Position numbers and translations under genes: made by a program. A stretch of 64,000 nt of DNA from Arthrobacter sp. M4 (GTDB lineage: Bacteria > Actinomycetota > Actinomycetes > Actinomycetales > Micrococcaceae). The stretch is from the NCBI RefSeq assembly GCF_020251205.1, contig NZ_JAIWYX010000003.1, positions 186,001-250,000 on the forward strand, in the 5' to 3' direction. Positions within the stretch are counted from its first letter, which is position 1, and each line of letters opens with the position of its first letter. Under the pieces are notes generated by a model. The model saw nothing but the letters and a program-made list of their open reading frames with translations, searched no databases and was not told where the DNA came from. Positions 2,042 to 39,118 of this stretch are shown one piece after another.

Positions 2042-3211
2042 CTACACGGCCTCCCGGCCGAGTGCGAGGAAATTACGAAGCTCGTTTTGGGACTTGAGGT
2101 TGAGGCTCTTCCGGACTTCAATTTCAGAGACGGCAGCATTTTGAAGGGCCTCTCCAAACAGCCTGGCTATTCCAGTCCCATAGGCAGACAGCCGCTTCTG
2201 CACCCGCGTCTGGCCTCCGCGGGCGAATCCGTCCTGTGCGGGCTCCTCGAAACTGCCCGAAACCGCATCCACAAGGCCGGCGCTGGCGAGTCCCAGCTGC
2301 TTAAGGCGGATGGCGACAGAGTAGTAGCTGCAGAAGAAGTATCCGGCGATGCGTCGAACGGAGTCGATGTCATCGTCTTGAATAAATCCCTTCTTCAGGT
2401 ATTTCCCCATGTAGAAGGTGAGCTCCGGCTGGGACATGAGGAACGCCGCCGCGAAGCGGTTGCACCAGGCTTCCTCGCTTGTGCGGGACTGCAGATCATG
2501 TTTGTCGCACGCCTTGTCGACCCCACGTAGCAGATGCGCCAGTTCATGTAGCAGAGTAAAAGAACGAGCTGCGGGGTGTTTCACAGCCGAATTGACGAAG
2601 ACCAGGGGCACATGATCGTGGTGGAGGGTGAAGCCGCGGAGCGCGTCACCCTCCACCGGTAACAGATTTGTCATGATGCCGTGGCCTTCTAAGGCTTCCC
2701 TGATTGCCACGAACAACTGAGTCTTGCTTGTAATATGTCGGCGGCGTTCCTGAACGTCGCCCCACTGCAACCACCGGGCAACGACGGCCGCTGCTCGTTC
2801 CGGCGTTGCATTTGATGGGATGGAAGGGAGCCGAACGGCGTCGTGCCCCAGCTCCCTGGTTATTTTCTCAGCCGCCTGTTGGCGTCGCTTCGCGTCTCTA
2901 ACCGCTGCACGTTCATCGGGGCTGAGAGTTCGCGCTTGACCAGCATTGGACATGGGAGCCCGGAAATTGGCATCCACCGAATGCCGGCTTGTTTCGGGCG
3001 GCGCTGGTAGGGCAAAGAAATAGACCGATCGGCGCGTCGCTCTCGCGATGTACTTGAGGGCTTCCTCGTCAAGGGTGACCGGCCCGGCAAGGGGTAGGGA
3101 CTGCGCGGCGCTTCCCCTTAGCCCGACAGCTGCAAGGATCTCGTCCCTGTTAACCCCGGCATCCTCCAGTGCCCACTCAAGAACATCTCCTTGAACGGTG
3201 GCTTCAGTCAT
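2042..3211 (-). CDS. ImmA/IrrE family metallopeptidase with N-terminal regulator region
   Basis: A 389-residue protein. The zinc site HELAH is at residues 222-226 inside SFTLLHELAHLLRG, and a downstream glutamate lies in EEAWCNRFAAAFLM, as in the COG2856 (ImmA/IrrE) gluzincins. Residues 1 to about 100 look like a divergent XRE-type region, typical of the long form of the family (regulator fused to peptidase). The C-terminal 100 residues carry no motif I recognise. It leads an operon with the PIN-like gene downstream. In known relatives the peptidase cleaves a repressor or restrains the partner; which applies here is not visible. Confidence 0.8.
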   Translation of the reverse strand: MTEATVQGDVLEWALEDAGVNRDEILAAVGLRGSAAQSLPLAGPVTLDEEALKYIARATRRSVYFFALPAPPETSRHSVDANFRAPMSNAGQARTLSPDERAAVRDAKRRQQAAEKITRELGHDAVRLPSIPSNATPERAAAVVARWLQWGDVQERRRHITSKTQLFVAIREALEGHGIMTNLLPVEGDALRGFTLHHDHVPLVFVNSAVKHPAARSFTLLHELAHLLRGVDKACDKHDLQSRTSEEAWCNRFAAAFLMSQPELTFYMGKYLKKGFIQDDDIDSVRRIAGYFFCSYYSVAIRLKQLGLASAGLVDAVSGSFEEPAQDGFARGGQTRVQKRLSAYGTGIARLFGEALQNAAVSEIEVRKSLNLKSQNELRNFLALGREAV

Positions 3212-7934: not shown

Positions 7935-8453
7935 GTGTCTAGGAGGAACTGCGAGGAGTGCAGGAGCAGCTTCGAACCCAGCCGCATGTCGCAGCGGTAC
8001 TGCTCCACCCGCTGCGCCGATAGGCAGCGCGACCGTCGACGTCGGAACGCCCGTCGACCAGCGGACACGCCCGCATCCGTTGACTCAAACGCCGAGGCAG
8101 CGCGCCTCGCCATAGAACTCGAAGCAGCCAAGCGCCAACTCGAAACCACATCCAAGGCCTGCCAGCAACGCCTAGACGAACTTCAATCCAAACTCCGCTC
8201 CCAAGCCTCCGAAATCGACCGACTCGAAGCAGATAGCTCCGAACAACTCGAGCGAATCAGCCTCCTCCACAGTGAAGTTGCGCGCCTCAAGCGAGCCCAG
8301 CGGACCAATGTGCAAGACCTCGCACACGTGGCGGCTTGGCTCGTGTCAGTAGCTCAGGCCAAAGGCGTCGCACTTGACGTCAAGACCTTGGACATTCTCC
8401 GCCGTCGTGGTTGGACGCCATCACGACGAAATTCAGGAGCACCACGGGCATGA
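7935..8453 (+). CDS. Small zinc-ribbon/coiled-coil protein upstream of relaxase
   Basis: A 172-residue protein from GTG. Residues 5-30 hold CEEC and YCSTRC, a C-x2-C/C-x3-C zinc-ribbon pattern, followed by a very basic stretch (RQRDRRRRNARR). Residues about 50-130 form a long coiled coil rich in Glu, Gln, Leu and Lys. Its TGA overlaps the relaxase ATG (ATGA, 8450-8453), which implies translational coupling. A DNA-binding accessory role at oriT, such as a relaxosome helper, is inferred from position and composition; the family is not recognised. Confidence 0.6.
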   Translation: MSRRNCEECRSSFEPSRMSQRYCSTRCADRQRDRRRRNARRPADTPASVDSNAEAARLAIELEAAKRQLETTSKACQQRLDELQSKLRSQASEIDRLEADSSEQLERISLLHSEVARLKRAQRTNVQDLAHVAAWLVSVAQAKGVALDVKTLDILRRRGWTPSRRNSGAPRA

Positions 8454-11400
8454 CCATGTCCATCGCTAGGCTTTCCGCGCAATCAGGACTGAAGTACCTG
8501 TTCAAGACCACCATGATGGACGATGTCAGCACCCCTCCCCCGGACGCCACCACGTACTACATGCAGGCTGGGACGCCTCAGGGCCGCTGGATCGGCAGCG
8601 GACTCGCCGGCATCGACCGGAGCACCGGTGACCACGTCACCGAAACTGACGCGAAAGCGGTCTTCGACCGCGCCGTCCATCCCGACGCCGGCACTCCCCT
8701 CGGAAGGCCCCACGGCCAACCAACCATCACCCAGGCCGGAGACGGGAAGCCCACTGCGCGTCACGCCGTCGTCGGCTTTGACCTGACCTTCAGCGTTCCC
8801 AAGTCTGTGTCGGTTCTCTGGGCGCTGAGCCCCCGCAGCGTTCAGGACCAGATCCTCGAGACCCATCACGACGCTGTCAGCGCAACCCTCAAATGGCTCG
8901 AAGAGAGCGTCATCCACACCCGCGCGGGGCGGAACGGAGTCGCGCGAATTAGCACTTTAGGTGCCGTCGCTGCAGCGTTCGATCACTGGGAGTCGCGCAG
9001 CGGCGACCCGCAACTTCACACCCACCTCGTCATAGCCAACCGCGTCCAACGCACCACCGACGGCGCCTGGGTCACCCTTGACTCGCGGACGCTCTACAAG
9101 GCCGCCGTCGCAGCCAGCGAACACTACAACGGCTTGCTGTTCGACGCCCTTCGCCGGAATCTCGGAACCGACACCACCATCAGCGAAACCGGAACCACCA
9201 GCCACAACCCCAGCCAGCAACTCACGGGCATCGACAGCGCCCTGATTCGCGAATTCTCCAACCGCTCCCGCCTCATCGATATTGAAACCGACCGGCTTGT
9301 CGCCGAATGGAGTAAGGAGCACGGCCATCCCCCAACAGCAACCACCATCATCAAGCTTCGCCAGCAGGCAACACTGTCCACACGTGTCCCAAAGACTGAC
9401 CAACCCAAGCCTCTTCACGAACTCTCAAAGCAATGGCGTGCACGTGCAATTGACAAGGGCTTCGACACGAACACGGTCCTGGCCGCCACCATCAGACGCT
9501 CTCACGTCACGCCCTTCGCGCGCTCTGATTTCAACGCGTCCTGGGTTACCGCCGTCGCGTCCCTCACCCGTGAGCATGTTGGGGCCAAGCGCGCCACCTG
9601 GAACCGGTGGAACCTGCTCGCAGAGGCTGAGCGGGTCTGTGCACAGATCCGGTGCCGGTCTTCGGAGGATCGCAACGCGCTGATTGAACTCGTCGCCACC
9701 GCCGCCGAACAACAATCCGTGCCACTGAACGAGTACCGCTACACCCTTCCTCCAGAGGCCCAAGCTGACATGAAGCTCGGGCAGCGCAGTGTCTTCGACT
9801 TCCATGGCTACCGTCTCTTCACGGACGCAAAGACGCTCGCACGCGAAGAAGCCGTCATGGCGGCAAGAAACGACGACGGCGGTCCGGTCGTGCCTGCGAC
9901 CGTCACCATGGACGCGCTCAATGAATTCCGGCAACATGGCCGGTTTGAGTTACACGGGGACCAACGTGCCGCAGCTGCCGAGGTCGCGCTGAGCGGCAAT
10001 CGCCTCGACGCCCTCGTTGGACCGGCAGGTACCGGCAAGACAACAACCCTTGGTGCGGTGAGGGCTATTTGGGAGGCAGAGTACGGCGCGGGCAGCGTCG
10101 TCGGATTGGCCCCTGCCGCTGCCAGCGCCGAGGTGCTCGGCAGGGAGCTGGCGGTGGCCACTGAAAACGTGGCGAAGTGGCTTTACGAGTCCATGGGCCA
10201 AGGTGCGAATGGTCGGGGGGAACGATTCTTTGATCTCGAAAAGCGATTGGCCACGGCTCGGGCGGACGCAGGTCACTGGGTCCTCCGCTATGGGCAAGAA
10301 GCCACCCGCCTTGCAGCCGAGCAGCAGCGATGGACCTTCCATCCAAACCAGCTGATTATCATCGACGAAGCCTCCATGGTCTCCACATTCCAACTCTCGG
10401 AACTCGTCGGCCAAGCCCAAGATGTGGGGGCCAAGATTCTCCTGGTGGGCGACCCGGCACAGCTGGACGCCATTGACGCAGGAGGCGTTCTCGGGTGGCT
10501 TGACCGGCAGGGCAAGACAACTCGACTCAGCACCATCTGGAGGTTTGAGGATATTTGGGAGCGGGAAGCGTCATTGAAACTCCGAACCGGAGACTACACG
10601 GCCATTGGGGACTATGAGCGGCATCAACGGCTTCGGCACGGCAGTTACATGGAGGTGGTCGATCAGGCTTACCGGGCCTGGCAAACAGATGCTCGTACTG
10701 GAAAGTCATCCATTTTGATTGCCGCGGACAATGACACCGTCAACATGCTGAATGAACGTGCCCAAGCGGATCTCGTGGTTCAGGGCCTCGTGGATGCCGA
10801 AGAGACAGTCCCTTTAAGCGATGGTTTACACGCTGGGCGTGGAGACACCATCATCGCCCGCCGCAACGACCGCAATGTCGTGGACAGCAACGGCGACTTC
10901 CTCCGGAACGGAAGCCTGCTCGACGTCGTCAGCCTTGGTAGGCGTGACAACTCCCTTGTCGCGACGCGACGCGATACTGGGGCGAGCGTCACCCTTCACT
11001 GTGACTATATAGGGTCGGCAGTCGAATTGGGCTACGCGACGACGGCGCATCGGTCGCAAGGGATCACGGTTGATACTGGCCATACCGTTGTCACGCAGGG
11101 CAGGCTGACCCGTGAGCTCTTATATGTGAGCATGACGCGGGGTCGATCCGGCAATTACGCCTACGTGAGCGAAGGCGATTCGTCAGACCACCAGGCTCTC
11201 GACCCTGCCCTGCGGCCTTCGTGGCGGACGATTCTGGGAGAGATCCTTGCCGCAGAAGGTGCTGAACGAACCGCTCATGAGGTTGGGGAAATAGAACGTT
11301 TGAAGGCTGACAGCCTGGAGCGACTAAGTGGGGAGTACGACTATCTGGCACAGATTGTCGCTTCCGACGACCTGTCTCGAGTTCTCGAGCTTCACAGAGC

Positions 11401-12019
11401 TGAAGTGGTTGAGGAACTAAAGAAGTCGCCGTCATGGGGGCCAGCCGTCGCTGCATGGCGCCGGGCCTCGAGCTTCAACCGCGCAAGTGCAGAGCGTACC
11501 GTCGTGCAGGCTTTAGAGAGCATCTCTACTGCGGTGGATACGGCAGCCGTGATTCACGCAAGACTGCGACAACACCGTGATCCAACACACAGGAGCGAAC
11601 TTGACCCTTTGTCGGAGCATCTTCGAACTGATCGTCCTGATCTTGCTGATCTGCTCGCCCAGGTGAAGGCCCGAATTGCGAGACGCACAGACGACGTCGC
11701 ATCGAATGCCATGCTGTTCGAGAGCGACTGGAAGCGAGGGCTAATCGAGTCCGTGGGGCCAAGTGAATCGGAGGTCGTGAGCGAAATCGTCAGACGCGTC
11801 GCAATCTTCAGGGACCGATGGGGCGTTTCGGATTCTCCCCTGCCTTTGGGACCCATTCCGTCTGACTATGAATGGGAACAAAGCGAGCAAAGAACAATAG
11901 TTGAAACGGAAATCGAACAGATCAAATTGCATTCGATCCCACCGACATCAGAACAGGGCTCGATTTATCAATTAGGTTCCCAGCGCGACGCCCTTATTGG
12001 AGCCGGCTGGCAGCTCTAA
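8450..12019 (+). CDS. MobF-type conjugative relaxase-helicase (TraA/TrwC-like)
   Basis: About 1189 residues from the ATG that overlaps the upstream stop; a GTG-type extension to 8411 is possible but less likely. The N-terminal third is a TrwC/MobF relaxase. It has tyrosines near residues 36-37 (TTYYMQ), the block GKPTARHAVVGFDLTFSVPKS, and the HUH metal site in DPQLHTHLVIANR (H190, H192). A RecD2-like helicase follows, with GPAGTGKTT at 524, IIIDEASM near 636 and a C-terminal helicase block (ELGYATTAHRSQGITVD). The enzyme nicks oriT and unwinds the transferred strand. The last 250 residues are helical with no clear motif. Confidence 0.95.
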   Translation: MTMSIARLSAQSGLKYLFKTTMMDDVSTPPPDATTYYMQAGTPQGRWIGSGLAGIDRSTGDHVTETDAKAVFDRAVHPDAGTPLGRPHGQPTITQAGDGKPTARHAVVGFDLTFSVPKSVSVLWALSPRSVQDQILETHHDAVSATLKWLEESVIHTRAGRNGVARISTLGAVAAAFDHWESRSGDPQLHTHLVIANRVQRTTDGAWVTLDSRTLYKAAVAASEHYNGLLFDALRRNLGTDTTISETGTTSHNPSQQLTGIDSALIREFSNRSRLIDIETDRLVAEWSKEHGHPPTATTIIKLRQQATLSTRVPKTDQPKPLHELSKQWRARAIDKGFDTNTVLAATIRRSHVTPFARSDFNASWVTAVASLTREHVGAKRATWNRWNLLAEAERVCAQIRCRSSEDRNALIELVATAAEQQSVPLNEYRYTLPPEAQADMKLGQRSVFDFHGYRLFTDAKTLAREEAVMAARNDDGGPVVPATVTMDALNEFRQHGRFELHGDQRAAAAEVALSGNRLDALVGPAGTGKTTTLGAVRAIWEAEYGAGSVVGLAPAAASAEVLGRELAVATENVAKWLYESMGQGANGRGERFFDLEKRLATARADAGHWVLRYGQEATRLAAEQQRWTFHPNQLIIIDEASMVSTFQLSELVGQAQDVGAKILLVGDPAQLDAIDAGGVLGWLDRQGKTTRLSTIWRFEDIWEREASLKLRTGDYTAIGDYERHQRLRHGSYMEVVDQAYRAWQTDARTGKSSILIAADNDTVNMLNERAQADLVVQGLVDAEETVPLSDGLHAGRGDTIIARRNDRNVVDSNGDFLRNGSLLDVVSLGRRDNSLVATRRDTGASVTLHCDYIGSAVELGYATTAHRSQGITVDTGHTVVTQGRLTRELLYVSMTRGRSGNYAYVSEGDSSDHQALDPALRPSWRTILGEILAAEGAERTAHEVGEIERLKADSLERLSGEYDYLAQIVASDDLSRVLELHRAEVVEELKKSPSWGPAVAAWRRASSFNRASAERTVVQALESISTAVDTAAVIHARLRQHRDPTHRSELDPLSEHLRTDRPDLADLLAQVKARIARRTDDVASNAMLFESDWKRGLIESVGPSESEVVSEIVRRVAIFRDRWGVSDSPLPLGPIPSDYEWEQSEQRTIVETEIEQIKLHSIPPTSEQGSIYQLGSQRDALIGAGWQL

Positions 12020-17025: not shown

Positions 17026-18183
17026 CTAAGGACCGGACATTTCCAACCCCCTGGATGGTCCAGCCGGAAGCTCCAAGCCGACATAGGACTCCTCGCCCTC
17101 GACCCGCACAGATCGCTCGACCGGCGGAACCTTTCCGCCGAATCCGGGAGGTTCAGTGACTTCGAGGATGCCCTTGCACGCGGCCGTCACCCGGCCAAGC
17201 ACGGACTTCGCAATGTCAATGCGTGATCCGGGAAGCCGACGGGATGATGCTTCTCCCGAAACAGAACCTTCCGTCTCGATCACCGCGTCAGCCCAGCCGG
17301 CCAAATAGCTCGCGGATTGAGGGCCACGATCGATGCCGTGGGCTCGAAGCACCGTGTACGCAACCGACTCAGCTTCGACCTCGGCAAGGCCGCGATGGTC
17401 CACGCTGCTTCCATACAGCCGGCCGACGTCGTCATCGGGCCCATGAAGCAGCACATGCCCAAGCTCGTGCGCCAGCACCGCTGTCCGCTCCTCGAAATTC
17501 AGCCACGCACCTACCTGAACCTGATGCTCAGAAAAGTCGGTGAAGCCGCTCGTCAGCCCGTACTGTGCATCCGTGACTTGGACCTTGAAACCGTGCCGGC
17601 TTGCAACATCGCTCAGCGATTGCCAAAGCGCCGCAGCGTCCGCTGCTGAAGGAGCAACGGACCGGGGAACCAGAAGAGGCGTGCCTTGAGTCTGCGAAAC
17701 ATCAAAAACGGCCTGGCCCCGCCAGCCAGTAATGAGCGTCTTCTTCCCTTCGTCGACGGCTCCCTGTGGAAGGTTCTCCCCTGCAAGCATCCGCTTATGA
17801 GTGCCATCGGGCATCAGGATCTGCTGAACACGAGCCGTGCGCGGCGCAATCACCCACAGTGCATGCTCTCCGCGCAGGACGGTCCGGCCGTGGCGCTCCC
17901 ACTCCTTGTATCCAGCTACCAAGGTGGGTTCGTCCGTACCACGCTGGGCCATCTGCATCATGAGCAGAGCGACATTCCCACCGGAATAGCGCCAGAGCGA
18001 GGCGGAAGCATCCAAAAGAACCTGCCAGTGGGATGACGACTCCACAGCTTTCGCCAGGATCGTGTGAAGACCGTCCATCAGCCTCTCGACACGTTCCTCT
18101 GGAGTCATCCGTCCGCCGAGATCAGTCTGACCAAGGCCAGAGTCAGTCGTAAGAGATGAGGGAACTTCAGAACTAGCGGCCAC
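17026..18183 (-). CDS. ArdC-like antirestriction protein with zinc-peptidase domain
   Basis: About 385 residues from the GTG at 18183, chosen because GGAGG lies 9 bases upstream; no ATG start exists. The N-terminal region (WQVLLDASASLWRYSGGNVALLM, then GYKEWERHGRTVLRGE and LWVIAPR) is the ArdC-type ssDNA-binding domain. The C-terminal half has a metallopeptidase motif in TAVLAHELGHVLLHG, with a later Glu in GLAEVEAESVAY. ArdC proteins protect incoming ssDNA from host restriction after conjugation. Neighbouring ssb supports that role. Confidence 0.85.
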   Translation of the reverse strand: MAASSEVPSSLTTDSGLGQTDLGGRMTPEERVERLMDGLHTILAKAVESSSHWQVLLDASASLWRYSGGNVALLMMQMAQRGTDEPTLVAGYKEWERHGRTVLRGEHALWVIAPRTARVQQILMPDGTHKRMLAGENLPQGAVDEGKKTLITGWRGQAVFDVSQTQGTPLLVPRSVAPSAADAAALWQSLSDVASRHGFKVQVTDAQYGLTSGFTDFSEHQVQVGAWLNFEERTAVLAHELGHVLLHGPDDDVGRLYGSSVDHRGLAEVEAESVAYTVLRAHGIDRGPQSASYLAGWADAVIETEGSVSGEASSRRLPGSRIDIAKSVLGRVTAACKGILEVTEPPGFGGKVPPVERSVRVEGEESYVGLELPAGPSRGLEMSGP

Positions 18184-18267
18184 GACAGCCACCCTCCAAA
18201 CTTCTTGGGACCGCAGCACAGCTACGGGGACACCTGTTCATGCCCGAAGGAGCCGGAACAACATGAC

Positions 18268-29434: not shown

Positions 29435-30373
29435 CTAGACGAGCGAGCCAGCGCCGCTTTGGAGAACGCGCCAAGCGGTTCGATACAACTGCCTGGCGAA
29501 GCCGATGTTCACGGCGACATACCGCTCAGTGACACCGAGCTCAACGGCGAGAGCCCCGAGTTGAGCAGCCCGCTCCGGCCCTCGCAAACCTGGGCGGACA
29601 ATCGTATCGGCCACCCTCCTAAGAATGGTTGTTGGCAGGCAGTTCGCGGCGCATCGGCAAAGACTGTCGACGTCGGAAACTGACCCAGGCTCGCAGTTGA
29701 GGGCTGCATTGATCGTCTTGGCGGTCTGTCGGACTACCGTTACCGCATGCCAACGCCGGCGGTCTTGTGGCGACGGCGGTCCATACCTCCGGGGCGCGGT
29801 CAGGCTCGCCGTTGCAAGCCTCCATGTTTCTTCGTTGACACTACGGTGTACCATGCCAAGCATTGTCTGCGCCCACGCCTGATCGACCAGTTTCTCGGGG
29901 CTCCTGTCCAAATCTCGATCCAGACAAAGCACGGCAAGCGTGTCCGTGACTGGCTCGACGTCGGACGTAGTGGCCTCAACAAGCAGCGGCAAGGTTTGAT
30001 GGCTGAATTCGCGGCGGATATAGGCAGCGCAGACATTGCCGCAGACGCCCTGAACCCAGGCGCCGAAGGAAACACCCGGAATCCGGTGGTAGCGCCCCTT
30101 CGCGACTCCGTCCCACACCGCAAAGCGAATGTCTTGCATAACGTCGTCGACATCGCAGGACCGCCCAATGCGCGCCAGGCGCGAAATAACATACCGATGG
30201 ACCCCGTCTACGGCGGTCATTATCTGATCTATAGGTATTGCGGTCTCTGTGGCTGTCGGTGCGCTTCGTAGTGAGACATCCACTGCCCCGAGGTATGGTG
30301 CTTGCTCATTGCTTTGATTTGCCGTGGCTTCGACGTCCATGGCTTCACCGGCTTCGACTATCGAATTGAACAC
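29435..30373 (-). CDS. Sigma-70-like protein heading the transfer operon
   Basis: A 312-residue protein from GTG 30373; an ATG about 12 codons in (MDVEATANQ) is possible. A sigma region-2-like block is present (RYVISRLARIGRSCDVDDVMQDIRFAVWDG by segments; FGAWVQGVCGNVCAAYIRRE). The C-terminus (ALAVELGVTERYVAVNIGFARQLYRTAW) resembles the HTH of region 4. The middle is divergent. It is the first gene of an operon with two cell-envelope transfer genes and lies 150 bp from the divergent winged-helix gene. It may direct expression of transfer genes, which is inferred. Confidence 0.6.
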   Translation of the reverse strand: MFNSIVEAGEAMDVEATANQSNEQAPYLGAVDVSLRSAPTATETAIPIDQIMTAVDGVHRYVISRLARIGRSCDVDDVMQDIRFAVWDGVAKGRYHRIPGVSFGAWVQGVCGNVCAAYIRREFSHQTLPLLVEATTSDVEPVTDTLAVLCLDRDLDRSPEKLVDQAWAQTMLGMVHRSVNEETWRLATASLTAPRRYGPPSPQDRRRWHAVTVVRQTAKTINAALNCEPGSVSDVDSLCRCAANCLPTTILRRVADTIVRPGLRGPERAAQLGALAVELGVTERYVAVNIGFARQLYRTAWRVLQSGAGSLV

Positions 30374-30877: not shown

Positions 30878-31387
30878 TTAGCCCAGGTTTTGCGGCTCGT
30901 CCTCTTCGTCAGATCGCAGCTTGGCGGCAGCCTGCTCACCCTCGGGATGCCGGCTGATGTCCTTATTGAGGTACTCGGTGATCGCTCGAAGGGTTTCCGG
31001 TGACACGTCCCCCAGCGTTCGAGCGGCAAAAGACTTAACTCTCGCAGCGCGTAAAGACTTCACAAACTCAAGCTGGGAGTCAATGCGTTCGGGCAGGTCC
31101 GTGGTCCCGCCATCAAGAAGATATGAAGCATCGACGTTGAAGATTTCACAAATGGCTGCCAGCACCGATGGATCGCTGACGAGCCTTCCCGTGCCGTCTT
31201 TCATATAGAACCAGCGGGCCCTCGAGATCGTAATTCCCCTGGCCGCCAATTCCTCTTGGACTTCACGGAATGTGACGGGCTTTCCCCGCTCGGCAACTGC
31301 AACGTCCAGGAGCAGGTTTAGCCTGCGTGCGAGTTCGGCCTGAGGGGTTAGCTTCGCATGTTCCAAACGAGATTCGTCGCCAGACAC
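30878..31387 (-). CDS. EspR-like DNA-binding regulator, copy 1
   Basis: A 169-residue protein. The block ARRLNLLLDV...VTFREVQEELAARGITISRARWFYMKDG, then LAAICEIFNVDASYLLD, follows the HTH layout of EspR, the mycobacterial ESX-1 regulator. A second helical part (FVKSLRAARVKSFAARTLGDVSPETLRAITEYL) matches its dimerisation region. A related gene is at 32949-33395. A perfect 15-bp inverted repeat lies 121 bp upstream and is the likely operator shared with the divergent winged-helix gene. Confidence 0.75.
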   Translation of the reverse strand: MSGDESRLEHAKLTPQAELARRLNLLLDVAVAERGKPVTFREVQEELAARGITISRARWFYMKDGTGRLVSDPSVLAAICEIFNVDASYLLDGGTTDLPERIDSQLEFVKSLRAARVKSFAARTLGDVSPETLRAITEYLNKDISRHPEGEQAAAKLRSDEEDEPQNLG

Positions 31388-31508: not shown

Positions 31509-31540
31509 TCTTTAGCTGTAGACCCGTCTACAGCTAAAGA
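31509..31540. promoter_or_regulatory. Perfect 15-bp inverted repeat, probable operator
   Basis: TCTTTAGCTGTAGAC (31509-31523) and GTCTACAGCTAAAGA (31526-31540) are exact complements around a CC centre. The site is between the divergent EspR-like gene and the winged-helix gene, 13 bp before the first ATG of the latter. Position and perfect symmetry favour an operator for one of these two regulators. Confidence 0.7.
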
Positions 31541-31568: not shown

Positions 31569-31907
31569 ATGGCGAATATCTTGATGAATCCTGCGCGAAG
31601 CCTCCTTGTACGCTTCCTGATCACGCACGGACCCGCAACGTGCACGGAGATTGCAGCGGCTCTGCATGTCGCGTCACCTACGATTCGCCGGCACCTCGCT
31701 CTGCTGTCCAGCGCAGGAATTGTCAAACATATTCGGGGCCAATTCAAAGCTCAACCGGACGCAATCCGCAGGCAACTCGACGAACTCGCGGCTCTATTTC
31801 AACCGGCCGGCAATGATCCCAGGAACCGAGCGACGGAACCTTCCCACTTCTCGACGTCGCCGTTCCACTCCAGCGAATGGCCTGGCACTTCGAATCGAAC
31901 CAGCTGA
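31569..31907 (+). CDS. ArsR-like winged-helix regulator, copy 2
   Basis: About 112 residues from ATG 31569; an ATG at 31554 adds five. The block RSLLVRFLITHGPATCTEIAAALHVASPTIRRHLALLSSAGIVKHI by segments is a winged-helix fold similar to the gene at 30523. The recognisable domain ends near residue 80. The last 36 codons lie opposite the 3' end of the hydrolase gene (109-bp antisense overlap), so the tail may be an extension without function. It likely binds the palindrome just upstream. Confidence 0.65.
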   Translation: MANILMNPARSLLVRFLITHGPATCTEIAAALHVASPTIRRHLALLSSAGIVKHIRGQFKAQPDAIRRQLDELAALFQPAGNDPRNRATEPSHFSTSPFHSSEWPGTSNRTS

Positions 31908-32965
31908 ACCAGATCTGGGCGCGACCTCGCCAGCCGTTCCGAGACCACAAATGGTGTCGACTTATCCTCCGCTCCATGCAGCACGAGTATTGGAGTCCTA
32001 AGGTCAGCGGCCCGGCTTACCCAGTCCAGAACCTGGAGGTCGATGCGTTCCTTCAATCCCGTCACCCAACGCATCTGTGTTGACTGCAGAAGCCCCAGCC
32101 CGAGCAGTGCCACAGGCTTCGGCAGCCCACTTGCTCTGCCATTTGAGGTCAGCGTTGTGGCCCAGTCCAAAACGGGAGCGTCGAGGACTAGGCCGACTAT
32201 GCGGTCTGAGTTGGACGACAAGTCTGCGAGACGCAGCGCGATCGAACCACCCAGCGACCACCCAAAAAGCACGATGCGCTCAGCACCTCGACCAATGGCA
32301 TATTCCACCGCCGCTTCCACGTCGAGCCATTCATTTTGGCTGAGCGAATAACGGCCATCGTCCGACGGCGGCGCCTCGCCGTCGTTGCGAAAGGACACCA
32401 CTAGCGATGTGAAGCCGAACCGATGTGCAACGGGCACACCACGCAGGGTCCCTGCGCGTTTACCGCCCATCCCATGAATATGAATCGCCCACGTCGACCC
32501 AGGCCGCTGTAGCGGTTCGAATTTCCAGGCTGGCGCTGTCCCGCCATCGACCGAAATTGCCACGTCGTCATACGGCAAACCAAGCTGCTCTGGTCTTGAG
32601 TATGCATAGCCACTCCAGATCCCTATGTTTGCGCTCCGAATGTCGCCATAATCGACTCGCTCAACGACGCGGGTCACGGTCCCCTCGCCGGCGTCCACAA
32701 CCTCGCCGACGCAGGCGTGCCCGGAGCCGTTGGCGAACCAGATACTGTAGCGGCCGCGAGCACGTGTCAGCGGTGACGCAGGCAGCTCTACGAGTAAGGT
32801 TCCGTCGTCGCCGTCGAACACTCTGAGGATCCGAAGATCCTCCTTACGCGCCTTCGTAGGCACGGCGATGCGCCTGGCAAAGTAGCCCGCGCCCAGGAAA
32901 CCGGCCAATCCTAGAAGCGCAGCGGCGACCGTCAATCCAGCGATTACCCTAGTAACTTTCTTCAT
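31799..32965 (-). CDS. Membrane-anchored alpha/beta hydrolase
   Basis: A 388-residue protein from ATG 32965. A signal or anchor segment is at about 5-30 (VIAGLTVAAALLGLAGFLGAGY). The hydrolase part has an oxyanion-side motif IHIHGMGG near 161-168, the nucleophile elbow GWSLGG with S237, an acid in HGAEDKSTP and a histidine in VPGHSLEW. The catalytic domain should face outside the cytoplasmic membrane. It overlaps the EspR-like gene by 17 bp and is last in a four-gene operon. Substrate unknown; a signal lipid, ester or peptide ester is possible in this context. Confidence 0.78.
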   Translation of the reverse strand: MKKVTRVIAGLTVAAALLGLAGFLGAGYFARRIAVPTKARKEDLRILRVFDGDDGTLLVELPASPLTRARGRYSIWFANGSGHACVGEVVDAGEGTVTRVVERVDYGDIRSANIGIWSGYAYSRPEQLGLPYDDVAISVDGGTAPAWKFEPLQRPGSTWAIHIHGMGGKRAGTLRGVPVAHRFGFTSLVVSFRNDGEAPPSDDGRYSLSQNEWLDVEAAVEYAIGRGAERIVLFGWSLGGSIALRLADLSSNSDRIVGLVLDAPVLDWATTLTSNGRASGLPKPVALLGLGLLQSTQMRWVTGLKERIDLQVLDWVSRAADLRTPILVLHGAEDKSTPFVVSERLARSRPDLVQLVRFEVPGHSLEWNGDVEKWEGSVARFLGSLPAG

Positions 32966-33395
32966 CACCCCGCCGCATCCTTTCGTCGATAACGTCCCTG
33001 AGGCGTGCCAGGGTATCTGGCGAAATCCCTTGCAGCTGCCTAGCTGCGAAGTTTTTGACGCGCGTTTCACGCATGGAGCGGAGGAGCTTGAGTTGGGCCT
33101 CCACGAGGTCTGGAATTTCGGCGGATTCATCCAAAAGGTATTGGGAGTCAACCCCAAAGAACTCAGCCAGATTCCTGAGCAGCTCCCGCTCCGTCGCCAT
33201 CGAACTGTCGCCGGAGCGCATATAGGCCCATCGAGAGCGAGACAAAGGAGTACCTTTTGCTGCCATATGCTCGCTGATCTCTCGGTACGAAAGTGGTCCT
33301 GATCCTTGGGATTCGTACAGATCAAGCAAGAGATTGAGCTTTCGAGCGAGCTTTGCCTGGGGATTTTCCATGGACTCGCCTGATGAGGACGTCAT
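32949..33395 (-). CDS. EspR-like DNA-binding regulator, copy 2
   Basis: A 148-residue protein. ARKLNLLLDLYESQG, SYREISEHMAAKGTPLSRSR and LLRNLAEFFGVDSQYLLDES match the other EspR-like protein position by position, followed by a similar helical C-terminus (LRSMRETRVKNFAARQLQGIS). Its start overlaps the stop of the 7-TM gene by 4 bp. It is third in the ImmA-7TM-EspR-hydrolase operon, and may control that operon through the palindrome at 35002-35019. Confidence 0.78.
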   Translation of the reverse strand: MTSSSGESMENPQAKLARKLNLLLDLYESQGSGPLSYREISEHMAAKGTPLSRSRWAYMRSGDSSMATERELLRNLAEFFGVDSQYLLDESAEIPDLVEAQLKLLRSMRETRVKNFAARQLQGISPDTLARLRDVIDERMRRGDEESY

Positions 33396-34423
33396 CTATG
33401 CAGGTTCCTTCTGGCCTTTTCAGAACCTCCGATGGCATCTATCCGCGAGCCGCGGTGCGAGGCCAGATAGTCTTCGGCGCGACTCAAGGTTTCTCGGTCC
33501 CTATTGCTCAATAGAGTTGCGGTAGCAGGTTCCATAAGGAGCGCATCCTGGATTTCAACGAGCATGCGATGCAGGCGTCGATTCGCAGCATCGACCTGTT
33601 CGTCCGTTACCGCAGGAGGTGGCAGGCGAGTCTCCATACGAGCCTCTGTCATCTTCTCCCACACAGGTGCAAGGCTCTCCCCCAATTCAATGACCCTCTT
33701 CAAGTCACTTCGTCCGGTCAGTCGACGGGCTACCGGCGGCAACGCAAGACCAATGCACAAGAAGGTCATTGCCCCCACGACACTTGCGTCGTAGACCAAT
33801 GACAGCGCCGCCATTGTCCGGACGTCCCCCATGAGATGCGCTATGTCCATTCCCAGAACGGACAAGGCGAGAACGAGGGCCAGCACGCACCCGATTCCAA
33901 TAAGAGTGAACCCGATACGAAAGTACGGCCGCGCCATATCTCCGCGGAACCTAAAGCAAACTACGCCGGTTAGGGCAACCACAGCTCCAATGTAGATGAA
34001 TTGAATGGCGGAATAGACAGCTGCAGCCCATTGGTCCCCATAATCCTTCATGAAGTTTGTGGACGAGTCTGTGGCGTCAATTTGGACGAAGGCCACAATC
34101 AATCCCAGGATCACCAAGCAAAGAATGCCGAGTCCGATGCTGTCTTTGCGAGCCATATCCTCACGTGGATCTGCCGCACCAAGGATGGCCTTGGAGAGGA
34201 AGTAAATCCCTACCACCATCAGGATGTTGGCGCAGACGTCCAAGACGTTTCTGCTTCCAAGGGCTCTGTCGAGCGCAAGGTAGATCGGGTCTATGTTCAA
34301 AGTCAGAGAAGTAGCGATTGTCAGGGCTGCAATAAGAATGCTGTGGTCCATGCGCCGCGTAGTACCGGGCAAGAGGCATAGCACTAATCCCCAGATGACA
34401 AGGGCCGCAACGAGTTGAGTCAT
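33392..34423 (-). CDS. Seven-TM protein, DUF6545/MAB_1171c-like
   Basis: A 343-residue protein. Seven membrane segments lie at about 3-20, 27-47, 60-80, 93-115, 134-156, 168-190 and 203-225. A cytosolic tail of about 115 residues follows (SDLKRVIELGESLAPVWEKM, HRMLVEIQDALL). This matches a family annotated as MAB_1171c putative transporters (DUF6545, from memory), seen beside XRE regulators and ImmA-like peptidases in actinobacteria. There are no transporter motifs. A receptor role is as plausible as transport. It overlaps both neighbours by 4 bp. Confidence 0.65.
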   Translation of the reverse strand: MTQLVAALVIWGLVLCLLPGTTRRMDHSILIAALTIATSLTLNIDPIYLALDRALGSRNVLDVCANILMVVGIYFLSKAILGAADPREDMARKDSIGLGILCLVILGLIVAFVQIDATDSSTNFMKDYGDQWAAAVYSAIQFIYIGAVVALTGVVCFRFRGDMARPYFRIGFTLIGIGCVLALVLALSVLGMDIAHLMGDVRTMAALSLVYDASVVGAMTFLCIGLALPPVARRLTGRSDLKRVIELGESLAPVWEKMTEARMETRLPPPAVTDEQVDAANRRLHRMLVEIQDALLMEPATATLLSNRDRETLSRAEDYLASHRGSRIDAIGGSEKARRNLHR

Positions 34424-34983
34424 CCGAAGATCCGCTCGAAGGAGCGCGGCTCGATTGCGCTGTCACGAATTGCAGCAGCAAGGAGATCGGCGAGAGTTTC
34501 CGCAGCAGCTTCCACCTCATCGACGAAGCTGCTGCGGTTCAGAACCTTCCTCACCAATTCCCCGTTGAGATTGGGAAAGAGGCTCTCTGCGTATTCCGCG
34601 GAGACACCCAACTCATCATGGCGCAAGATCATGTGCCCGAGTTCGTGAAGGATGAACTGCTGCCTGTGCAGTGCTGACGGCGAGACGGCATGAAGGATGA
34701 TTTCACTGGCCTCCGTTGAGAGCCAGAGCCCGCAGACGGATCCGCCGTTCAGGACAGGTGCGACGTCGATTTCGATCGGGCGGCCTCTCAGTACCTCCAC
34801 TATTTCAACGAGGCCATCCAAGGTCAGGTGGTTCGGAAGTCGAAGGGATTTGAATGCGTCTGCGGCTACGACCGCCGGAGTCGATCCATGCACTGATTGT
34901 TCTTCCACGGCGCCCCTCCTCGCAGCGGACAGCTCGGCCATCAGGATCGCTTTCAGATCGAGACGCGCACAAACTGCATTCAC
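34420..34983 (-). CDS. ImmA/IrrE-like metallopeptidase, operon head
   Basis: About 187 residues from GTG 34983, which lies downstream of an 18-bp palindrome and follows AGGGGAGG at 12 bp. A GTG at 35022 would place coding over the palindrome, and an ATG at 34941 is also possible. The zinc motif is in QFILHELGHMILRH (histidines near 113 and 117), with acidic residues in DEVEAAAETLADLL as the possible third ligand. It heads the operon ImmA-7TM-EspR-hydrolase. By analogy with ImmA-ImmR it may cleave the EspR-like regulator when a signal arrives. Confidence 0.7.
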   Translation of the reverse strand: MNAVCARLDLKAILMAELSAARRGAVEEQSVHGSTPAVVAADAFKSLRLPNHLTLDGLVEIVEVLRGRPIEIDVAPVLNGGSVCGLWLSTEASEIILHAVSPSALHRQQFILHELGHMILRHDELGVSAEYAESLFPNLNGELVRKVLNRSSFVDEVEAAAETLADLLAAAIRDSAIEPRSFERIFG

Positions 34984-35001
34984 GTCAATTGAACGCCTCC
35001 C

Positions 35002-35019
35002 CTCTGGACATGTCCAGAG
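35002..35019. promoter_or_regulatory. Perfect 18-bp palindrome at the start of the ImmA operon
   Basis: CTCTGGACATGTCCAGAG is its own reverse complement. It lies 19 bp upstream of the preferred ImmA-like start and about 120 bp from the divergent excisionase-like gene. It is a likely operator, possibly for the EspR-like protein of the operon. Confidence 0.65.
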
Positions 35020-35136
35020 CACTTGGCTGGCTCGAAGTAGTTTCCATGACGCTGAAGAAGCGACTCATGCAGTCATGTCCGTTTCAATTGGAGCGCCCAT
35101 GAACAGCAAACCAACTAGTGAGTCTTGGGAGTTTCC

Positions 35137-35412
35137 ATGGAGCTTGAATTCTTCGAACCAGCCGAAGCCGCAGCCCTCATGCGCTGCACAGAAGCATGGC
35201 TCCGCGAAGGAGCCTCCAGCGGTCGGTTTCCCCACGCGTGTTGGGGAAAGGGGAAGATCATATTCACCTCGGAACACATCCTAGAGATCGCTCGGTTAAG
35301 TGAGATCCTCCCCGGCGGCAATGGCACAACGAATTCCACCCCAGTCCAGTCCGGCTCCGCGGGAAGGCTGATCGGGACGCGAGCCAGAGCACGACTTGCT
35401 CCTGTAAATTGA
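35137..35412 (+). CDS. Excisionase-like HTH protein
   Basis: About 91 residues from ATG 35137, with GGGAG 6 bases upstream. ELEFFEPAEAAALMRCTEAWLREGASSGRFPHACWGKGKIIF by segments is the MerR-like winged-helix of small excisionases (Xis), where a tyrosine/arginine-rich first helix is followed by the wing KGKIIFT. The remaining 45 residues are low-complexity. Place between the integrase and the cargo supports a role in excision. It could instead be a transcription regulator of transfer. Confidence 0.65.
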   Translation: MELEFFEPAEAAALMRCTEAWLREGASSGRFPHACWGKGKIIFTSEHILEIARLSEILPGGNGTTNSTPVQSGSAGRLIGTRARARLAPVN

Positions 35413-36369: not shown

Positions 36370-37188
36370 TCAAGCGGGTTTGAACCGTGAGGCCACCAAC
36401 TTGTGCATCGCAGGGACGTCGATCTCGCCCGTAGTCTCCTGTACAAGCAGTTCGGTTAGCCGCTTCGGCCAGAGTACGTGAACGCCTTGCGTTGAGAACG
36501 AGCCACCGATGAGGGGCCAGTCGGCTTCGACGAAGCAAAGTGCCCCTGTCACCGGTGCATCGTGGAAGAGGTTCCGAACGGTGTCGACCTGTTTGAGCGC
36601 CCCATCGATCAACTTCGTGCAGTCGCGCCCGCCGACGAGGAACTTCTCGGTGCGTGGCCGAAGAATCCCGCCATCAATCTTCAGCTCGGGTCGCCCCTTG
36701 TACCGCTTAGCGTCAATCACCCAGATTCCGGCGGTAGTTATGGCGATGTGGTCGATGTTTGCCTTCGACCCGGGGATTCGTCGGTCGTGAAGGACTGCGA
36801 TTCCATCGGTGGCTAGGGAATCGAGTCGGGCACCGAGGCGCTCCTCGCCGATGGCGCCTCGCTCCCAAGACTTGGTGCTCTGCCGCTCGTCCGAGAGGGC
36901 CACAGCGATGACGCCGATTGGCCCCCATTTCTTGCGGAGGTTTTCTTCATCCTTGGCCTTGCGACGCTCGTATTCACGTCGGGCCGATGATCCTGCTACT
37001 CCAGACTCGGTCCGCGACGACCCATCAGAAGGTGATTCGAGATCCGGCGCGGATTCCATGGCCCCTTGGAGGCACTCCAAGCAGGTGAGGGTCTTCGCCT
37101 CGCTCTCGTAGATCGCTTCCGTCCGGGCCGGAAGATATCTACCACATGCCCGGCACGTTCCGGGATACCGGAGACTCATCTGCTTCAT
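36370..37188 (-). CDS. NERD domain protein with zinc ribbon
   Basis: About 272 residues from ATG 37188. The N-terminus has CRACGRYLPA and CLECL, a C-x2-C pair typical of a zinc ribbon. After a basic linker, the NERD domain reads GAIGEERLGARLDSLATDGIAVLHDRRIPGSKANIDHIAITTAGIWVIDAKRYKG by segments. The D-x-I and D-A-K residues form the nuclease-like core of the fold. NERD proteins are DNA-related and occur in defence and mobile-element contexts. It stands alone near the integrase and may be cargo. Confidence 0.85.
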   Translation of the reverse strand: MKQMSLRYPGTCRACGRYLPARTEAIYESEAKTLTCLECLQGAMESAPDLESPSDGSSRTESGVAGSSARREYERRKAKDEENLRKKWGPIGVIAVALSDERQSTKSWERGAIGEERLGARLDSLATDGIAVLHDRRIPGSKANIDHIAITTAGIWVIDAKRYKGRPELKIDGGILRPRTEKFLVGGRDCTKLIDGALKQVDTVRNLFHDAPVTGALCFVEADWPLIGGSFSTQGVHVLWPKRLTELLVQETTGEIDVPAMHKLVASRFKPA

Positions 37189-37200
37189 GAGGATGCGCAC

Positions 37201-37796: not shown

Positions 37797-38951
37797 TCAA
37801 GCATCACCACGTAACGGTCGCAGCGGCACAAACCCCGACACCGACCGCTCCATCGCATCTGCCGTGGCCTGCAGGGCTTCCGGCATCAAGTGCCCGTAGA
37901 CCTGCTCTGTCGTCCGAGTGGAAGTATGCCCGAGATGCCGCGAGATCGTGAACAGCGGAACCCCATCCTGGATTAGCCAAGACGCATGTGTGTGGCGCAG
38001 ATCGTGTATGCGCGGCGACTTCGTCAGTCCATTGGCTTTCGCGGTCTTCACGGCCGGCAGCCAATAGTGCTGCCAGTACACCTGTTGAATGATCCGCCCA
38101 CCTTTCGGCGTAGTGAACAGAAGATCTTTCCCCGGCCGACCGGCAACGAGCGGAATCAGCAGCTCCACTAGGGCGTGGTTGAGTCCGATAGTGCGCTTGC
38201 CGGCGCCAGTCTTTGTTGGGCCGATGTAGTACTGGTTCTGGCCGTCACGTTTCCAGGCCTTGTTTATCCGCGCTGTGGGCGGCTTGGAGAGCAAATCAAC
38301 GTCCGCCACAGTTATTGCCGTGGCCTCTCCAAAGCGGGTTCCCGTCATTACGAGAAAGTTCGTAAAGGCCTTGTACCGCTCCGCCATGCCCTCAATAACC
38401 ATGCTGAACTCGGCATGAGTGAGGAACATGGCTTCATCCTCAGGCTTTTGAAGGTTGGGGAGCTGTACGCCGCGGCAAGGATTGCGAGGGATATATTTCA
38501 ACTGTTCGGCCGTATTCATGGCCGCCGAGATCAATCCGTGCACGTTGTGGATCGTCTTCGCTGAACGGCCCTTTGCCGTCATCGACTTCACCCAATGTGC
38601 TATATGCCGGTAGTCGAGCTTATCCACTGGGATGTGGCCGATCACGTCCCGCACATGAAGATCGAGCATCGTCTGATAAGTCCTGGTGGTTCCGCTCGAA
38701 GGGCGGATCAGCAGGTCGATGTGTTCCTGAATGACCTCCGCGACGGTCGGCACCAGCTTCGCATTGGTTAGGATTGCGTGCTGAGCGATTTCAAACGATT
38801 GGCCGTTGGCATCCAACAGCCGTCTGAGGGTCTCGGCCTCCACTTGCGTGGCCACCGTGAGGCCCTGCTGCTCGTGGGTGTTCGGGTCCCGCCAGCAAAC
38901 CATGAAGGACGATGTACCGTCCTTTTTTGTCCGTTTGCGGATACTGGCCAC
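37797..38951 (-). CDS. Tyrosine recombinase, ICE integrase
   Basis: A 384-residue phage-type integrase from GTG 38951. An N-terminal arm-binding start (MASIRKRTKKDGTSSFMVCW) precedes a SAM-like core-binding domain (YQTMLDLHVRDVIGHIPVDKLDY). The catalytic domain has the first Arg in TGTRFGEATAI, H-x-x-R in HDLRHTHASWL, the following His in HLGHTSTRTTEQVYGHL and the nucleophile Tyr in that stretch. It lies 85 bp from the 3' end of tRNA-Leu, so the element uses that tRNA as attachment site. Confidence 0.95.
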   Translation of the reverse strand: MASIRKRTKKDGTSSFMVCWRDPNTHEQQGLTVATQVEAETLRRLLDANGQSFEIAQHAILTNAKLVPTVAEVIQEHIDLLIRPSSGTTRTYQTMLDLHVRDVIGHIPVDKLDYRHIAHWVKSMTAKGRSAKTIHNVHGLISAAMNTAEQLKYIPRNPCRGVQLPNLQKPEDEAMFLTHAEFSMVIEGMAERYKAFTNFLVMTGTRFGEATAITVADVDLLSKPPTARINKAWKRDGQNQYYIGPTKTGAGKRTIGLNHALVELLIPLVAGRPGKDLLFTTPKGGRIIQQVYWQHYWLPAVKTAKANGLTKSPRIHDLRHTHASWLIQDGVPLFTISRHLGHTSTRTTEQVYGHLMPEALQATADAMERSVSGFVPLRPLRGDA

Positions 38952-38998: not shown

Positions 38999-39036
38999 CC
39001 CAACCTTTAAACAGGCCCTGACCTGCCGAAACACTG

Positions 39037-39118
39037 TGCCCGAGGTGGGACTCGAACCCACACACCTTTCGATACCGCATTTTGAGTGCGGCGCGTCTGC
39101 CAATTCCGCCACTCGGGC
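39037..39118 (-). tRNA. tRNA-Leu (anticodon CAA), ICE attachment target
   Basis: An 82-nt tRNA. Acceptor arms GCCCGAG and CTCGGGC pair fully. The anticodon stem CCGCA/TGCGG holds loop CTCAAAA, with anticodon CAA reading UUG codons. The T-loop GTTCGAGTCCC is standard, and a long variable arm fits a class II tRNA. The discriminator is A and CCA is not encoded. The ICE integrase lies just beyond its 3' end, so the tRNA 3' part is probably the attachment core restored on insertion. Confidence 0.95.

Follow-up and report, generated by a model that had tools for sequence, protein, structure and literature searches.

A four-gene operon joining an ImmA-like peptidase, a seven-transmembrane protein, an EspR-family regulator and a hydrolase on Arthrobacter mobile elements: a possible undescribed signalling system

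Introduction

In the integrative and conjugative element (ICE) ICEBs1, PhrI and RapI act on ImmA and ImmR, and CapP, the peptidase of the CapH/CapP pair, responds to DNA damage. A membrane sensor, a zinc protease, a repressor and a serine hydrolase are brought together in one inducible unit in the BlaR1-BlaI-BlaZ system, and the regulator EspR is a dimer of dimers involved in long-range DNA bridging. Here we describe an operon of Arthrobacter sp. M4, carried by an ICE, which combines parts of these kinds: an ImmA-like peptidase (immA), a seven-transmembrane (7-TM) protein (tm7), an EspR-family helix-turn-helix (HTH) protein (espR1) and an alpha/beta hydrolase (hyd). The window analysed is a stretch of 64,000 nucleotides (assembly GCF_020251205.1, contig NZ_JAIWYX010000003.1, positions 186,001 to 250,000), for which an earlier note, made from the letters alone, had proposed that the four genes might form a signalling system.

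Published work touches these parts separately. In the excerpts available of the respective articles, knockouts of MAB_1171c and of two other genes cut biofilm by about half, MAB_1171c being termed a transporter (PMC8707978); COG2856-Xre pairs are described with no mention of a 7-TM partner (PMC2701414); and ImmA goes unmentioned in a further article (PMC6579920). Among open PubMed Central (PMC) papers we found no literature on the family DUF6545 and no description of the four-gene module. The parts are of known kinds, and their combination with a 7-TM receptor and a swappable enzyme looks new.

A recurrent four-gene operon

The four genes lie on the minus strand in the order immA-tm7-espR1-hyd with consecutive overlaps of 4, 4 and 17 bp, all of them present where the earlier note had placed them (Table 1). 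The operon is real and not a chance arrangement, because the identical four-gene set recurs in 58 of 79 loci; in the genus, all 21 genomes with the operon's palindrome (see below) carry the four genes as well. The concern that the genes might not be found together elsewhere, the hydrolase and the 7-TM protein being unrelated passengers, was examined and is not borne out by these 58 loci.

These 79 loci were chosen by likeness to the window ImmA, and the counts therefore describe the companions of this subfamily and not of all ImmA proteins. The survey kept 80 loci, from which L269 was dropped (no ImmA open reading frame (ORF) found). A 7-TM gene was present in 77 of the remaining 79, the other two ending within 480 bp of ImmA, and 10 carried an MpaB/Lcp-like oxygenase, a label given here to proteins resembling that of L050 (the L050 and L047 proteins were themselves scanned with Pfam). 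Start sites of relatives are approximate, coming from a home-made gene caller that overlooked the 7-TM gene in four stretches (L150, L154, L159 and L167). Moreover, L252, L253 and L256-L258 are near-identical in this region, and the named loci L218-L297 overlap in part with our genus genomes (L218 and G362, for instance, coincide in place), so that genus and 79-locus counts are not to be summed.

Searches with the 7-TM protein gave a similar picture. Matches were found in 31 of 59 genomes; the gene order of the window, with all four genes, recurs in each of the eight closest relatives (7-TM 54-63% identical), and four loci with a 7-TM protein at 38-39% have the order ImmA-7TM-Hyd-EspR. A phylum sample of 296 genomes contained 22 with a 7-TM match and 16 places above the MAB_1171c cut-off, including the one in the window. 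In all but one of these 16 places the 7-TM gene has ImmA as its neighbour (14 in the first stretch examined, the fifteenth in a wider one), which agrees with the earlier statement that DUF6545-like 7-TM genes occur near such peptidase genes. The MAB_1171c model matched nothing in 14 control genomes, and viral contigs yielded only 3 weak relatives. In every one of the 8 loci where EspR was not detected, the 7-TM gene is still found next to ImmA, which suggests that receptor and protease make up the core of the module and that the enzyme is its exchangeable part. Three oxygenase-type loci outside this ICE carry EspR, and Hyd is present in Sinomonas locus L235. In Sinomonas loci L246, L260, L261, L263, L264 and L267, ImmA-7TM-EspR was seen near apparent flagellin/hook-associated genes, as judged by eye.

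The operon had originally been given as 31799-35022, and in this respect one boundary probably has to be moved. The genes stand, but immA probably starts at GTG 34908 rather than at GTG 35022, because the frame from 35022, which begins 3 bases from the palindrome at 35002-35019, crosses that conserved element, because the ImmA start of most relatives aligns at the codon matching 34908, and because AGGAGG (34920-34915) stands ahead of the latter.

Table 1. Features of the window discussed in the text
Feature	Position	Strand	Description
Palindrome CTCTGGACATGTCCAGAG	35002..35019	.	18 bp; presumed EspR1 operator; contains -35-like TGGACA (35016-35011)
-10-like TTCAAT	34988..34993	-	Inside conserved GCGTTCAAT; 17 bp after TGGACA
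immA	34420..34908	-	ImmA-like M78-type metallopeptidase, 162 amino acids (aa); start corrected from 35022
tm7	33392..34423	-	7-TM receptor-like protein, MAB_1171c/DUF6545 family, 343 aa; helical tail predicted cytosolic
espR1	32949..33395	-	EspR-family HTH protein, presumed repressor, 148 aa
hyd	31799..32965	-	Alpha/beta serine hydrolase, 388 aa; one N-terminal hydrophobic helix; conserved S237/D334/H363
Second conserved inverted repeat	31509..31540	.	Core GCTGTAGACGGGTCTACAGC; between EspR2 and ArsR2
EspR2	30878..31387	-	EspR1 paralogue; accompanies the ICE core rather than the operon
Sigma-factor-like gene	29435..30373	-	ICE gene, used as ICE marker
xis-like gene	35137..35412	+	Divergent from operon; HTH_17 20.6 bits, below cut-off 27
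Tyrosine integrase	37797..38951	-	Beside tRNA-Leu 39036-39118
MobF/TrwC-type relaxase-helicase	8450..12016	+	69% identical to the L041 protein, which is TrwC by Pfam

A conserved palindrome at the operon promoter

The palindrome CTCTGGACATGTCCAGAG occurs once in the window within 3 mismatches, where 0 are expected. When 1 mismatch is allowed, 21 of the 101 genomes of the genus have it, each of them at a single site (an exact match in 20, one mismatch in the remaining genome), and every one of these sites directly precedes the four genes; the reversed-pattern control gave 0 throughout. The pattern GGAC-N14-18-CGTTCAAT was likewise met in the window solely at the operon promoter, and the EspR2-type core TTGAGCATGCTCAA gave 3 window matches at 3 mismatches against 2.5 expected, which is not significant.

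Other clades have CATG-centred palindromes of their own (TGAAACATGTTTCA in the plasmid-type relatives, TTGAGCATGCTCAA in the Microbacteriaceae-type elements), and each core pairs with its own EspR recognition-helix sequence. Such palindromes of at least 12 bp stand at 54 of 71 EspR-bearing loci and at 0 of 8 EspR-less ones (Fisher p 4e-5, ignoring kinship and near-identical loci), mononucleotide shuffles leading us to expect 0.68 of the 79 loci. That the palindrome tracks both the presence of EspR and its type of recognition helix is good indirect evidence that EspR is the palindrome-binding protein.

The outer arms of the palindrome differ between genomes and yet stay complementary. In 35 sites (41 before identical ones were removed, the first sites of L143 and L226 among the 41 not being module sites), complementarity holds in 29/35 at offset 9, 25/35 at offset 10 and 21/35 at offset 11, with four pair types at each of these offsets, and over offsets 9-20 it reaches 195 of 420 cells as compared with 94-116 when the arms are slid. 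The L230 palindrome is perfect over 40 bp. This pattern might reflect a hairpin function or repair by template switching. In L137, L226 and L234, TTCAAT flanks the palindrome on both sides, and the promoter there would therefore be bidirectional. In L226 the complete palindrome, together with a -10-like element, is moreover present a second time (L226:2574), inside the MobF reading frame.

Across the palindrome, the nearest divergent gene is xis or a zinc-finger (ZnF)-MobF pair in 8 of the 21 genus loci, xis being near in 5 of the 21. An ArdC-like gene is nearest in 21 of 31 Microbacteriaceae-type site rows, several of which are near-identical.

The four proteins

The zinc-site of ImmA, HELGH with downstream glutamates, follows the HEXXH plus downstream glutamate pattern of Peptidase_M78, and H88, E89, H92, E133 and E137 (numbered on the 162-aa protein) are invariant in 32/32 aligned sequences, window included. 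Its structure model (predicted local distance difference test (pLDDT) 79.9) gave CapP (7t5t) at rank 1 and PprI at rank 5 of a fold search, all weak matches (E 0.02-0.09), with BlaR1 also weakly present at ranks 6, 10 and 19; a profile of ImmA had no real match among PDB sequences. Two further proteins of the window have M78 domains, one at 17026-18219 (ArdC-like, scoring about at the M78 cut-off) and one at 2042-3211.

EspR1 alone matches the solved EspR (E 4e-7) over residues 16-141 of 148, that is, nearly full length and including the C-terminal part, and the assignment as EspR-like made in the earlier note is thereby upheld. It also matches the PADLOC capH model (3.2e-5). Because ImmA weakly resembles the CapP/PprI fold and EspR1 matches CapH, the natural reading by analogy is that the two would form a repressor-cleaving pair. 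As for EspR2, the inverted repeat of GCTGTAGACGGGTCTACAGC type beside it, with arms of at least 8 bp and outer arms varying in sequence, was seen in 19 of 22 ICE loci checked (window excluded). In two loci of the same class, L151 (5795-7916) and L152 (6142-8258), an EspR-like gene and an adjoining ImmA-7TM pair are oriented towards each other, and the L151 protein matches the solved EspR at 1.5e-67. Mycobacterial EspR may therefore once have had such partners.

The 7-TM protein is a DUF6545-like protein, as had been proposed, scoring over the curated cut-offs of both NF042915 MAB_1171c (113.3 bits, cut-off 100) and PF20182 DUF6545 (27.5 bits, cut-off 24.4). All 51 aligned 7-TM sequences match NF042915 at E 0.001 or better, the cut-off itself being shown for the window protein. 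Loops 1 and 5 and the C-terminal part are positive, loops 2, 4 and 6 negative and loop 3 about zero, charges that fit a topology with the N-terminus outside and the C-terminus inside (N-out/C-in). The AlphaFold2 model (pLDDT 89.5, predicted template modelling score (pTM) 0.82) gave nothing at E 0.001 in Foldseek, where the best row had E 0.005 and the top rows were mostly G-protein-coupled receptors (GPCRs). With VIA-align, the top 50 rows were all of GPCR type, from Z 15.5 at rank 1 (8wrb, root-mean-square deviation 3.8, 231 residues) to 13.4 at rank 50, with identities of 5-13% across rows; for unmatched helical models, rank 1 lies at about 14 and rank 50 at 6, with values as high as 13. The protein thus models as a GPCR-like bundle, a resemblance and not a proof of kinship, because unmatched helical models come near these Z values. 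The family bears the NCBI label putative transporter, and the best fold matches are receptors, a list that does not exclude transporters. In the tail, R286, E290 and D293 are invariant in the 51 sequences and are candidate ImmA contacts.

Hyd is an alpha/beta hydrolase of lipase/esterase-like type, whose S237, D334 and H363 are invariant in 25 aligned sequences (window included). The placement of its active site on the outside, thought likely in the earlier note, finds no support in the charges flanking the N-terminal helix, which do not settle topology (mean C minus N 0.04; C>N in 10/25, C<N in 8/25). In other loci its position is taken by other enzyme classes, for which Pfam found MPAB_Lcp_cat, Polyketide_cyc and Amidase; the neighbour in some large-genome class-mates is an amidase or, by weak Pfam matches, an FAD-dependent oxidoreductase, one of each having been scanned (L165, FAD enzyme below the cut-offs; L155, amidase).

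Hyd has a chromosomal paralogue with 45% identity, encoded beyond the window at G000:C33:260177-261289, and chromosomal copies at about 41-48% are among the matches listed for most of 61 genus genomes, some 40-100 kb from the module where both share a contig. Of the 19 chromosomal rows found, 12 were placed in a tree together with 25 element rows. In this tree, the rooting of which is uncertain, the chromosomal rows form one clade (100/100) inside the spread of element copies; L148, a 610-aa Hyd-like long ORF on a very long branch, was not relied on. Recruitment of a housekeeping hydrolase by the element was consequently rejected as an explanation: the opposite direction is at least as likely, because the chromosomal clade nests among element copies.

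One module on several mobile backbones

Of the 101 genus genomes, 27 have the marker gene of this ICE, with matches at E below 1e-50 (a 28th match, at E 4e-4, was dropped), and all 27 carry an ImmA-7TM module, 21 of the hydrolase type and 6 of the oxygenase type, in support of the association with ICEs advanced in the earlier note. In G359 and G369 the marker gene has a stop inside, in G014 and G378 marker and module are on different contigs, and G022 contains the marker twice and the 7-TM gene three times. The hydrolase-type modules lie beside ArsR2-EspR2 on the int/xis side in 14 cases and beside a DUF4192 gene and MobF in 6, the module of G407 being beside neither within the stretch examined. 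The oxygenase type has the order SRPBCC-oxygenase-ImmA-7TM and stands next to MobF or DUF4192 in 6/6 cases, and the 7-TM proteins of the two types are about 24-31% identical.

In a second kind of element, found in Microbacteriaceae and others and presumed to be an ICE, the module has the order EspR-ImmA-TM7-Hyd and is preceded by ParB-like, DUF2637, primase and ArdC-like genes. An HTH_17 excisionase-like gene comes after Hyd in 18 such loci, 85-150 bp behind it in 17 of the 18. Among the plasmid relatives, 11 of 20 records are typed conjugative, and three records looked at in detail are MOBP conjugative, MOBF conjugative and non-mobilizable. One module is carried on several backbones, at least three different mobile ones.

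The window element also encodes a TraG/TraD coupling protein, a TrbL/VirB6-like protein and an NlpC/P60 protein, and a NERD-domain gene (36370-37200) is located between the operon and the integrase. The left end of the ICE was not found: the window contains no directly repeated copy of the 3' end of tRNA-Leu, and shared 12-mers revealed none in the 20 kb leftward.

Proposed mechanism and alternatives

In the mechanism that we propose, to which we give an even chance, a small molecule outside or in the membrane would bind the 7-TM protein (N-out, C-in), the cytosolic tail of which would activate the zinc peptidase ImmA encoded by the overlapping upstream gene. ImmA would then cleave EspR1, the repressor presumed to sit on the palindrome over the operon -35, with derepression of the operon and also of divergent mobility genes where present (xis, ZnF-MobF, or the ArdC-primase genes of Microbacteriaceae type). 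Finally, the hydrolase, replaced elsewhere by an oxygenase, FAD enzyme or amidase, would act on the sensed molecule and close a feedback loop, as beta-lactamase does in BlaR1-BlaI-BlaZ. We infer ligand sensing, the coupling of receptor to protease, EspR1 as both palindrome binder and cleaved substrate, the action of the enzyme on the ligand and the effect on transfer. An enzyme that erases or modifies the ligand, rather than making it, is favoured since receptor, repressor and enzyme share one promoter with the presumed operator.

A number of observations weigh against this chain of events, its weakest points being the single-copy site and the oxygenase-type operons of this ICE. No additional CTCTGGACATGTCCAGAG site was found within 1 mismatch in the 21 genomes or within 3 mismatches in the window. 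For want of further sites, direct repression of int, type IV secretion system (T4SS) or distant promoters by EspR1 was dropped as a candidate. Of the system view in the earlier note, the conserved four-gene unit and the ICE association hold; the restriction of the palindrome to the operon promoter counts against a simple ICE-repressor model, and so does the divergent side, where 13 of the 21 genus loci have something other than xis or ZnF-MobF as the nearest gene. The second copy in L226, which lies outside the genus sample, is not explained by the model. The oxygenase-type modules of this ICE showed no EspR within the stretches examined, and therefore either ImmA has another substrate there or the model fails. 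Seven of the eight EspR-less loci are of this one type, so the 0/8 does not represent eight independent cases and the test of association between palindrome and EspR is weakened. A perfect CATG palindrome of at least 12 bp is missing from 17 of 71 EspR-bearing loci, and five Sinomonas loci lacking it share the helix sequence of L267, which has one. As for the enzyme, neither a hydrolase nor an oxygenase was detected with the ImmA-7TM-EspR set of six Sinomonas loci, and several large-genome ImmA-7TM loci have no enzyme identified. The assignment of ImmA as an ImmA-type peptidase stands by its HELGH motif and invariant zinc residues but not by the Pfam cut-off, its score to Peptidase_M78 (PF06114) being 12.9 bits under a gathering cut-off of 22; just 6 of 32 aligned sequences match that family at E 0.01 or better, and the best fold match is weak (E 0.024).

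In a bolder and more tentative form, doubtful but possible, the mechanism would extend to a modular signalling class, in which a GPCR-like receptor acts through a soluble metalloprotease on an EspR-type repressor that is destroyed, the choice of lipophilic molecule to be made or erased depends on an exchangeable enzyme, conjugative elements use the module to time their movement and mycobacterial EspR descends from such modules.

The same enzyme could be given the reverse task. In a quorum system, it would make or mature the ligand, the 7-TM protein would read donor density and ImmA/EspR would switch excision or transfer, on the pattern of PhrI/RapI and ImmA/ImmR in ICEBs1; the enzyme is encoded within the same operon, the enzyme classes found (MPAB_Lcp_cat, Polyketide_cyc, Amidase, lipase/esterase-like) could handle lipophilic small molecules, and the module is present in 27/27 ICE-marker genomes. 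We consider this rather unlikely: no dedicated signal gene or exporter was noticed beside the operon, for which no systematic search was made, and different enzymes on one ICE backbone would need different receptors, something that 7-TM types only about 24-31% identical make possible.

It is unlikely, too, that the operon is an inducible accessory module for detoxification, surface or defence functions, with mobile elements as mere vehicles and no role in transfer. The carriage of at least one module by 27/27 ICE-marker genomes speaks against such a passenger, and so does the position of the Microbacteriaceae-type copies between ArdC-primase genes and an excisionase-like gene, even if the palindrome is confined to its own promoter, the module varies in position within one ICE family, being found either on the int/xis side next to ArsR2/EspR2 or next to DUF4192/MobF, and the FAD-enzyme and amidase versions lie in large genomes with no mobility genes seen in the stretches examined. 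A DNA-damage switch like PprI-DdrO or CapP-CapH, with the 7-TM protein and the hydrolase in a separate exclusion or transport function, would suit the fold ranks of CapP (1) and PprI (5), the capH match of EspR1 and the transporter label of the 7-TM family, but is highly improbable given that the 7-TM gene stays beside ImmA in all 8 loci without detected EspR and across families, and that receptors are its best fold matches, in a list that does not exclude transporters.

Comparison with known systems

If the proposed mechanism is true, it would amount to a receptor-coupled ImmA-type switch spread on mobile elements in Arthrobacter, Microbacterium, Leucobacter, Agromyces and others. Such a switch would account for the family labelled 'MAB_1171c putative transporter' and supply defined operators, make the trigger of these ICEs directly testable and offer a fresh angle on the original stimulus of EspR-family regulators.

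ImmR/ImmA pairs are known from ICEBs1 and from TnSmu1 (PMC10233336). The window locus resembles them in having an HTH protein and an M78-type peptidase in one operon on an ICE, with a palindrome in a divergent control region, which in our case lies near xis in 5/21 genus loci, the repressor function of EspR1 being presumed. The locus differs in its EspR-type repressor, its extra 7-TM protein and enzyme and its gene order, and no genes like RapI/PhrI of ICEBs1 were noticed. A COG2856-Xre toxin-antitoxin pair would call for a toxin gene in the operon; Pfam, NCBIfam and PADLOC gave no convincing toxin family for the four proteins. Besides capH, no defence family had a convincing score among six window proteins scanned.

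The likeness to CapH/CapP lies in the EspR1 match to PADLOC capH and in CapP 7t5t as first fold match of ImmA, with a membrane receptor added in the window. As in BlaR1-BlaI-BlaZ, a sensor, a zinc protease, a repressor and a serine hydrolase are found together, but here sensor and protease are separate proteins, and repressor and hydrolase belong to different families. Mycobacterial EspR is of the same protein family as EspR1 over nearly full length, whereas EspR1 would appear to act on its own operon, with no ESX link seen. Finally, the 7-TM protein shares with GPCRs a predicted seven-helix bundle and an N-out/C-in charge pattern, while its presumed partner is a peptidase.

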